From positions 1 to 34,133 of the forward strand of contig JAQTRT010000004.1 of the NCBI GenBank assembly GCA_028711675.1: a stretch of DNA of 34,133 nt, written 5' to 3'. This document shows, piece by piece, positions 5,853 to 20,545 of the stretch (positions within the stretch are counted from its first letter, which is position 1; every line of letters starts with the position of its first letter). The notes under the pieces were generated by a model. The model made no database searches, was not told the DNA's origin, and worked only from the letters and a program-made list of their open reading frames with translations. The stretch comes from a bacterium. Lineage in GTDB: Bacteria; Spirochaetota; JAHITG01. The translations under genes and the position numbers were made by a program.

Positions 5853-5937
5853 AAAAGGTTTTAAAGGCAGTAAAGGTTAAAAAGGTATTAAGGTAAGGAT
5901 AAGTTACCTTTAAAACCTTTATTACTTTTTATGCCTT
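5851..5937. repeat. Imperfect hairpin of 9-bp-periodic AAAGG / CCTTT units (copy 1)
   Basis: GG ends at 5858, 5867, 5876, 5885 (then 5893, 5898); inverted CC (or AC) starts at 5907, 5916, 5925, 5934; central stem AAGGTAA...TTACCTT (5890-5896 / 5904-5910). Confidence 0.7.
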
Positions 5938-5984
5938 CGTGTCTTCGCGGCTAAATAGATTAAAAAATTTTGGAGGTTAAAGAT

Positions 5985-18405: not shown

Positions 18406-19278
18406 ATGATATGGCTTATCGGAAATAAAGGAATGCTGGGGCATGATGTTGAGCTGCTTTTAAAACAGGAGAAAAAACCTTATCTGGCCTCGGACAGGGA
18501 TGTGGATATCACGCGGCCTGATCAGATAAAGGATTTTATCCGTGATACCAGGATCGAATATATCATAAACTGCGCAGGGTACACAGCCGTGGACAAGGCT
18601 GAAGAGGAGAAAGAAAAAGCTTTGCAGATCAACGGAGAGGCTGTGAAGAACCTGGCTGGCGCGGCCCTGGAAAAACAAGCAGTCCTTATCCATATTTCCA
18701 CGGATTATATTTTCGACGGGATGAAAAGCGAACCTTACCGGGAGGAAGACGAACCGAAGCCTCTTTCCCTGTACGGTTTGAGTAAATTGAAGGGAGAAGA
18801 GCATGTCTTGAATATGCTGAAAAGATATTATATCCTGCGCACAGCCTGGCTGTACGGGAAGAACGGCAGGAATTTTGTTTTTACCATGCTGAATTCATTG
18901 AAGACAAAAGATGAGATCAGGGTTGTGGATGACCAGCAGGGAACGCCAACGTATTCAAAGGACCTGGCCGCAGCTATCCTGGTGATACTCCGGACACCTC
19001 TTCTCCCTTACGGTATCTATCATTTTACCAATGAAGGCGAGACAACATGGTTCGGATTCACCGGGGAGATCTACCGTCAGGCTGTGCAGATGAAAATGGT
19101 CGATCCTCCTGTAACATTACGGCCTGTTACAACAAAAGAGTATCCCTTGCCTGCCAGGAGGCCGAAATACTCCGTTCTGTCCAGGGATAAGATTAAAAAA
19201 GCCCTGAATATCAGGATCCGGGAATGGAAGGACGCCCTTGGGGACTTTCTCCAGACGGTTAAGGAAGATGAAAGATGA
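18406..19278 (+). CDS. rmlD: dTDP-4-dehydrorhamnose reductase
   Basis: GNKGMLGHDVELLL, DVDITRPDQIKDFI, INCAGYTAVDKAEEEKEKALQINGEAVKNLA, STDYIFDG, LYGLSKLKGEE. Confidence 0.93.
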   Translation: MIWLIGNKGMLGHDVELLLKQEKKPYLASDRDVDITRPDQIKDFIRDTRIEYIINCAGYTAVDKAEEEKEKALQINGEAVKNLAGAALEKQAVLIHISTDYIFDGMKSEPYREEDEPKPLSLYGLSKLKGEEHVLNMLKRYYILRTAWLYGKNGRNFVFTMLNSLKTKDEIRVVDDQQGTPTYSKDLAAAILVILRTPLLPYGIYHFTNEGETTWFGFTGEIYRQAVQMKMVDPPVTLRPVTTKEYPLPARRPKYSVLSRDKIKKALNIRIREWKDALGDFLQTVKEDER

Positions 19279-19320
19279 TCAGACCGCAAGCTGTAATAAC
19301 TTTAAGATATAAGAGATGGT

Positions 19321-19430
19321 TTTCAAGGTAGTAAAGGCAATAAAGGTCATAAAGGTTTTAAAGGTTTAAATGGGGATTTGTCTTTACCTTTAAGGCCTTT
19401 CTGCCCTTTCAAACCTTTACAGCCTTTTTT
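19321..19430. repeat. Imperfect hairpin of 9-bp-periodic AAAGG / CCTTT units (copy 2)
   Basis: GG at 19327, 19336, 19345, 19354, 19363 and CC at 19387, 19396, 19405, 19414, 19423: five units each arm, exact 9-bp period; right arm ends in T6. Confidence 0.8.
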
Positions 19431-19474
19431 ATCACATAATGTCTATGCTGTTTAATCATCAGGATAAATGAAAA

Positions 19475-20545
19475 ATGACGAGAGCATTGAACAATATCCT
19501 TATCACGGGCGGAGCCGGGTTCATCGGTTCTAATTTTATACATTATCTCTCCGGTCAAAAGGATTTCCAGGGCCGGATCATCAATGCAGACTGTCTTACC
19601 TATGCCGGCAATCCGGAGAACCTGGCTGAAATAGAGGAAAAATGGGGCGGGAAAAGGTATTTCTTCGTGAAAGCGAATATCCGGGATCACGCCTCCATGA
19701 AAGCCCTGTTCAGTAAATATAATATTGATACAGTGATCCATTTTGCGGCTGAATCACATGTCGACCGTTCCATCTACGGCCCTAAGGAGTTTATTGATAC
19801 CAATATTATCGGGACATTCACCCTGCTCGAATCGGCCAGGGAATCATGGAAGGAACGGGATGATGTCCTTTTTCATCATATCAGCACGGATGAGGTGTTC
19901 GGTTCTCTCGGGGAGAAAGGAGCCTTCAGTGAAGAGACCCCGTACAGGCCTAACAGCCCGTATTCCGCCTCAAAAGCCAGCTCGGACCATCTGGTACGGG
20001 CTTATTTTATGACCTATGGCCTGCCGGCCACAATCTCCAACTGTTCCAATAACTACGGGCCGTACCAGTTCCCGGAGAAGATGATCCCTTTGATGATCCT
20101 GAACGCTCTGGAAGGTAAAGACCTTCCTGTTTACGGTGACGGACAGAACATCAGGGACTGGCTGTATGTCCGGGATCACTGCGATGCGGTCTGGACCATC
20201 GTAAATAAAGGGAAGAAAGGCGAAACATATAATGTGGGCGGAGAGAATGAGTGGAAGAACATCGACCTTGTCCGTCTTTTATGCAGACAGGTGTCAGATC
20301 TGACCGGCCGTTCCAGTGATGAATATACGGACAGGATACGGTTCGTTAAGGACAGGCCCGGCCATGACAGGCGGTATGCCATAAACTGCGGAAAGATCAA
20401 AAAGGAACTGGGCTGGAAGCCTTCTTGTCATTTTGAACAGGGCCTGCTTGAGACCATTGTATGGTACCGGGACCATTCCCCATGGGTCAATAACGTGAAG
20501 AACGGATCATACAAGGAATGGGTGGAGAAGCATTACCACGGATAG
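19475..20545 (+). CDS. rmlB: dTDP-glucose 4,6-dehydratase
   Basis: [76 protein letters not shown]. Confidence 0.97.

Follow-up and report, generated by a model that had tools for sequence, protein, structure and literature searches.

The rmlD and rmlB genes lie next to each other in a 34,133-nt stretch of DNA from a Spirochaetota bacterium (the whole stretch that was analysed, hereafter the window), with rmlD ending at position 19278 and rmlB starting at 19475. The junction between them holds an inverted array of short periodic units, designated copy 2, which spans 19324–19427; direct reading of the sequence placed both of its arms in exact 9-bp steps. The left-arm cores are CAAGG at 19324 and AAAGG at 19333, 19342, 19351, and 19360, which puts GG at 19327, 19336, 19345, 19354, and 19363; a sixth, degenerate core (AATGG) follows at 19369. 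In the right arm, CCTTT starts at 19387, 19396, 19405, 19414, and 19423, and the centre is 22 nt when taken as 19365 to 19386. The preliminary description had placed five GG units (19327–19363) opposite five CC units (19387–19423) at 9-bp spacing with a T6 end, which reading of the sequence confirmed. Its assignment of AAAGG to all left-arm cores held for four of the five but not for the first, CAAGG. It was also right that the spacers vary while the cores are complementary: the arms match in their AAAGG/CCTTT cores, and the spacers do not.

As that description also had it, another copy shares this design: copy 1 (5854–5938), 13.5 kb apart from copy 2. Both copies are located inside a long co-directional polysaccharide cluster. 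Many elements of the genome are enclosed by outer 8-bp arrays, GCCACNAAGRCACNAAG..CTTNGTGGC, and copy 1 retains the right-hand part of one. The coordinates of both copies are given in Table 1.

Table 1. Coordinates of the two array copies and of the rmlD-rmlB junction in the window.
Feature	Position	Strand	Remark and basis
Copy 1 left arm, AAAGG array	5854..5894	+	1 nt past upstream stop codon; scans
Copy 1 right arm, CCTTT array	5907..5938	-	pattern and array scans
Copy 1 outer 8-bp-periodic array GCCGCGAAGACACGAAGG	5934..5951	-	second type of unit, enclosing the AAAGG arrays
Copy 2 left arm	19324..19373	+	cores CAAGG, AAAGG (four) and degenerate AATGG; sequence, pattern scan, array scan
Copy 2 centre, hairpin apex	19374..19386		degenerate core to first CCTTT; sequence, RNA fold
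Copy 2 right arm, five CCTTT at exact 9-bp spacing	19387..19427	-	sequence, pattern scan
T6 run	19425..19430	+	includes TTT of the last core; sequence
rmlD-rmlB junction, 196 nt	19279..19474		comparison with three same-phylum genomes (L295, L296, L297)

The window contained 15 matches to AAAGGN4AAAGGN4AAAGG with at most two mismatches, compared with 0.25 ± 0.54 in shuffled sequences. Across the whole genome (2.94 Mb in 340 contigs, 79% complete), there were 74 forward and 78 reverse exact three-unit matches (152 together), and the reversed pattern had none. These counts indicate that the array pattern is not due to chance. We then catalogued arrays in 60 stretches (654 kb including the window), consisting of all contigs with a three-unit array and five others, so that the family statistics below are drawn mainly from contigs selected for carrying arrays. 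Successive cores in these contigs were spaced by 9 bp in 311 cases and by 18 bp in 58, against a background of about 5–15 for each of the other distances; the reversed control had 15 at 9 bp. The catalogue comprises 80 arrays or elements, namely 41 simple facing pairs, 9 composite, 2 RR, and 28 single-armed. Facing arms point inwards in every case, CCTTT preceding AAAGG in none of the 80. Two-armed elements are roughly 50–190 nt long, mostly 70–125 nt. Degenerate partner arms beside the single-armed arrays scored a median of 8 compared with a shuffled mean of 7.7, only slightly above shuffle, which means that many of the single arms may be remnants.

The unit consensus from 468 units is AAAGG-Y-W-N-T, with 70 different spacer tetramers and a core conservation of 90–99% per position, a figure inflated by the array-finding procedure. 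The centres of recurring types are either a 13–14-nt GGAAATTCC-like palindrome or a longer type with ACTTCTGTTGACAATGTC. Spacers showed no likeness between arms beyond composition (identity 0.461 vs 0.444 ± 0.018). Pairing of spacers across arms was 0.559 vs 0.550 (P=0.34), that is, no selection for an RNA hairpin was detected; too few substitutions were available for comparing RNA with DNA selection via G-U wobble asymmetry. Among four recent copy pairs, cores were changed at 9% and spacers at 14% (P=0.17), and strong current selection on the core was not detected.

A second inverted array, 8-bp-periodic CACNAAGR with tips GCCAC/GTGGC, occurs standing alone or flanking AAAGG arrays, with 31 matches vs 1 on the reversed sequence (examples are L171:2126-2303, L203:11903-11928, and L214:8909-8934, among others). 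Beyond the AAAGG arrays at L214:5049-5200, L219:15464-15500, and L211:11310-11345, there is a common flank, roughly TTATTRCTCTTAGACTAGYAGACT, which is possibly a third outer unit type.

Pairs of copies at unrelated loci provided evidence for dispersal. L174 and L185 are 93.5% identical over 124 bp; the match spans the element and stops at the outer GTGGC tip, and the sequences differ beyond its left end. L208/L209 and L213/L214 are homologous in inverted orientation. A MITE of a DDE transposon would carry terminal inverted repeats like those of a transposon in the genome, with a target-site duplication; here, the outer tips GCCAC..GTGGC recur among elements. Near-identical copies at unrelated loci mean that the family has been dispersed, and with about 80 arrays or elements genome-wide, the dispersed element class proposed earlier stands. 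At the rmlD-rmlB junction itself, the gene order rmlA-rmlD-rmlB is kept in three same-phylum genomes, and their rmlD-rmlB gaps are 9, -14, and -4 nt compared with 196 nt here. This comparison supports that copy 2 lies in a lineage-specific insertion, as judged from gap lengths. The clean insertion boundaries that the preliminary description hoped to read at this junction are unreadable at phylum distance, and neither a target-site duplication nor a base-resolution empty site was seen.

The elements form a dispersed, intergenic, non-coding family of palindromic repeats. We consider it rather likely that they are copied whole, survive behind stop codons, and form a 3' hairpin where transcribed. 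Gene positions bear on this reading, with genes called by a simple codon-scored ORF model and distances accordingly approximate. Elements overlapped a predicted gene in 7 of 80 cases and were otherwise extragenic. Fifty elements lie in co-directional gaps no longer than 600 nt; 33 of them begin at most 20 nt past the upstream stop codon, vs 16.4 expected for uniform placement (P<0.001), and 35 of the 50 are closer to the upstream stop than to the next start (P=0.007). Collagen-like coding, in which the 9-bp unit would give Gly-X-Lys, was also considered and rejected: stops occur in that frame in 6.4% of units vs 7.3% expected from composition. Annotators should beware that such arrays can yield spurious Gly-X-Lys (collagen-like) reading frames.

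An alternative is that the AAAGG units are double-stranded DNA sites bound by an oligomerising protein, either of the nucleoid or a regulator, with two oligomers meeting at the centre. The near-invariant core with variable spacers, the strict 9-bp spacing, the lack of spacer complementarity between arms, and the exclusively inward polarity would all suit such an array. However, the copies are dispersed together with homologous centres and flanks rather than being sites at one gene class, and they lie behind stop codons instead of at promoters. Moreover, 9 bp is not a helical turn of B-DNA, so successive sites would come off one face of the helix. We regard a protein-binding array as unlikely.

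The fate of the elements in RNA was assessed by folding. Copy 2 folds with -40.2 kcal/mol (z -4.1), and each of 13 folded copies was predicted to form one long hairpin with z from -3.6 to -7.3, below every shuffle. The predicted hairpins contain small, mostly symmetric internal loops. At the Rfam gathering score there was no match in the window and none on the element at another 12 loci, the only matches being two tRNAs; at a relaxed threshold, the matches were mostly eukaryotic miRNA-type hairpins far below gathering scores. These hairpins could also be intrinsic or bidirectional terminators, or attenuators, in which AAAGG..CCTTT stems with T-rich tails halt transcription on either strand. 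The hairpin and T6 of copy 2, the location behind stop codons, and an inverted symmetry that would serve both strands are in line with this function. On the other hand, both window copies lie within the co-directional cluster described above, T enrichment past the last core is modest, and a terminator scan of 19200–19520, which includes copy 2, found no intrinsic-terminator-like site; intrinsic terminators have a GC-rich stem with a U tract right behind it. Convergent gaps are not in excess either: the co-directional/divergent/convergent counts are 52/7/5 for elements and 388/50/42 for all adjacent pairs. A terminator or attenuator is thus quite improbable. The preliminary description had offered a mobile palindromic repeat, a protein-binding array, and an mRNA processing or termination element; the first fits best, and termination is little favoured by these data.

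The dispersed palindromic repeat was next followed across bacteria. With the strict facing pattern, the window's genome gave 64 matches; 60 relatives, among them a member of its family and another of its order, gave none. Of 298 genomes of the phylum, 3 had the outer-array pattern, the window's genome being one of them. A search across 85,462 species genomes, itself a sample, yielded at least 109 matching stretches from many phyla, some of them plain single palindromes that happen to satisfy the pattern. Periodic elements numbered 23 in the Phycisphaerae genome Zod_Metabat.1221, 18 in Victivallales RGIG2574, 14 in Chlamydiae BWMinControl_Nextera80_MAG2, and 11 in Thermoflexus RSWP15, and the reversed pattern gave 0; in the order of the 14-element Chlamydiae genome, 2 of 38 genomes were carriers. 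Elements sampled from many phyla lay, in co-directional gaps, at a median of 37 nt from the stop and 56 nt from the start. Thus similar arrays are scattered patchily over many unrelated phyla. The preliminary description would have been refuted by the absence of further copies in the genome and of similar structures in related genomes; copies abound in the genome, the 60 relatives have none, and similar elements occur in unrelated phyla. Two queries against a plasmid collection gave no BLAST match with the low-complexity filter on, and a full-text search of the literature for the printed unit sequences found nothing relevant, the sole match being a paper on fish eDNA; the rest of the literature search yielded comparators alone.

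In the Chlamydiae metagenome-assembled genome G080 (L313-L324), palindromes of great length are built in modules from AAAGGACNT and 7-bp AAAGGAC units. By inspection, spacers are complementary across the arms in some of them, unlike in the window's genome.

A candidate mobiliser was sought among Y1_Tnp-domain proteins, since a RAYT-like transposase had been suggested earlier. The window's genome encodes two, of about 320 aa (L193:4104-4442 and L196:6225-6539), and Y1_Tnp genes are present in most element-bearing genomes. The elements might therefore be REPINs that depend on a RAYT (Y1 tyrosine transposase) for their mobility and so belong to the REP/RAYT system proper; as short, extragenic, palindromic, high-copy inverted doublets, they look the part. 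Nevertheless, a three-unit AAAGG 9-bp array was found in the fetched flanks of 0 of 22 Y1_Tnp loci, comprising the 2 own loci and 20 from element-rich genomes, a subset of the Y1_Tnp genes of those genomes. According to the literature, RAYT genes invariably have two flanking REPs (PMC2817692), so the lack of array flanks leaves membership in a RAYT system unsupported. In addition, genome G094 has 9 strict elements and no Y1_Tnp match. The suggested RAYT link therefore failed at these loci, and we consider it very unlikely. Most of the 20 loci from other genomes (L275-L294; Y1 transposase genes of Phycisphaerae, Chlamydiae, Thermoflexus, Acidobacteria, and others) are flanked by different, GC-rich palindromes, and these look like RAYT/REP pairs.

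Slippage expansion of a simple tandem repeat within an ordinary inverted repeat, which would explain the exact 9-bp periodicity and the varying unit number, is scarcely credible, because adjacent units of an arm resemble each other less than randomly paired units do (identity 0.362 vs 0.442 ± 0.013; identical neighbours 4 vs 13.4 expected). This avoidance is absent from the Chlamydiae and Acidobacteria elements (identical neighbours 17 vs 15.7), in some of which, by inspection, the arms match each other with the spacers included.

For the dispersed palindromic repeat, we propose the following course. The family would spread when an enzyme supplied in trans copies the entire palindrome. Insertions would persist chiefly behind stop codons, where reading frames and ribosome-binding sites are spared. 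When transcribed, an element is predicted from the folding models to end up in the 3' untranslated region of the upstream mRNA as a long hairpin, interrupted regularly by small internal loops. By analogy with REP elements, this hairpin would probably retard degradation by 3' exonucleases or tune read-through from one gene to the next. More tentatively, palindromes of 8–9-bp units with an (N)AAGR core may constitute one cross-phylum selfish or regulatory class with its own copying enzyme or reader protein. The spacer consensus would then be particular to each host lineage, and new units could be added such that neighbours stay different; we hold this to be a possibility on the doubtful side. 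If the class is real, it would be a widespread and so far unnamed intergenic hairpin family of uncultured bacteria, with a periodic modular build that the known REP/RAYT mechanism does not account for. It would also serve as a test system both for the spread of palindromic repeats without an obvious transposase and for the effects of hairpins behind stop codons on operon expression.

Several known repeats resemble these elements in part. TAACTGA repeats of marine Beggiatoaceae (PMC4679880) are likewise high-copy intergenic arrays of short units with a patchy occurrence across phyla, but they are 7-nt direct repeats with no inverted arm and lie upstream of start codons. Bacterial stem-loop sequence families (PMC2267715) are alike by their description as intergenic repeats foldable as stem-loops; 67 of the 92 families reported there were previously undescribed. 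The closest comparison is with the REP/BIME/REPIN elements of enterobacteria and Pseudomonas, which are also short, extragenic, palindromic, and multi-copy, form inverted doublets and transcript hairpins, and often lie no more than 15–20 nt behind stop codons (PMC12306157, PMC3116915). They have one conserved palindrome of 16–35 nt, whereas each arm of the elements here is a tandem run of 3–6 units of 9 bp, in which a 5-nt core alternates with variable spacers. Furthermore, no cognate RAYT with arrays on its flanks was seen, and similar arrays occur in unrelated phyla. A REP is defined as an extragenic, palindromic stem-loop of 14–40 nt in E. coli with a highly similar common motif in multiple copies (PMC12306157). 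The family described here is extragenic, palindromic, and multi-copy; it is not short in this sense and has no highly similar common motif, since its members share no more than the 5-nt core and the spacing. Its location, copy number, and hairpin form make it REP-like, but its build is not that of a REP and no tie to a RAYT is supported.
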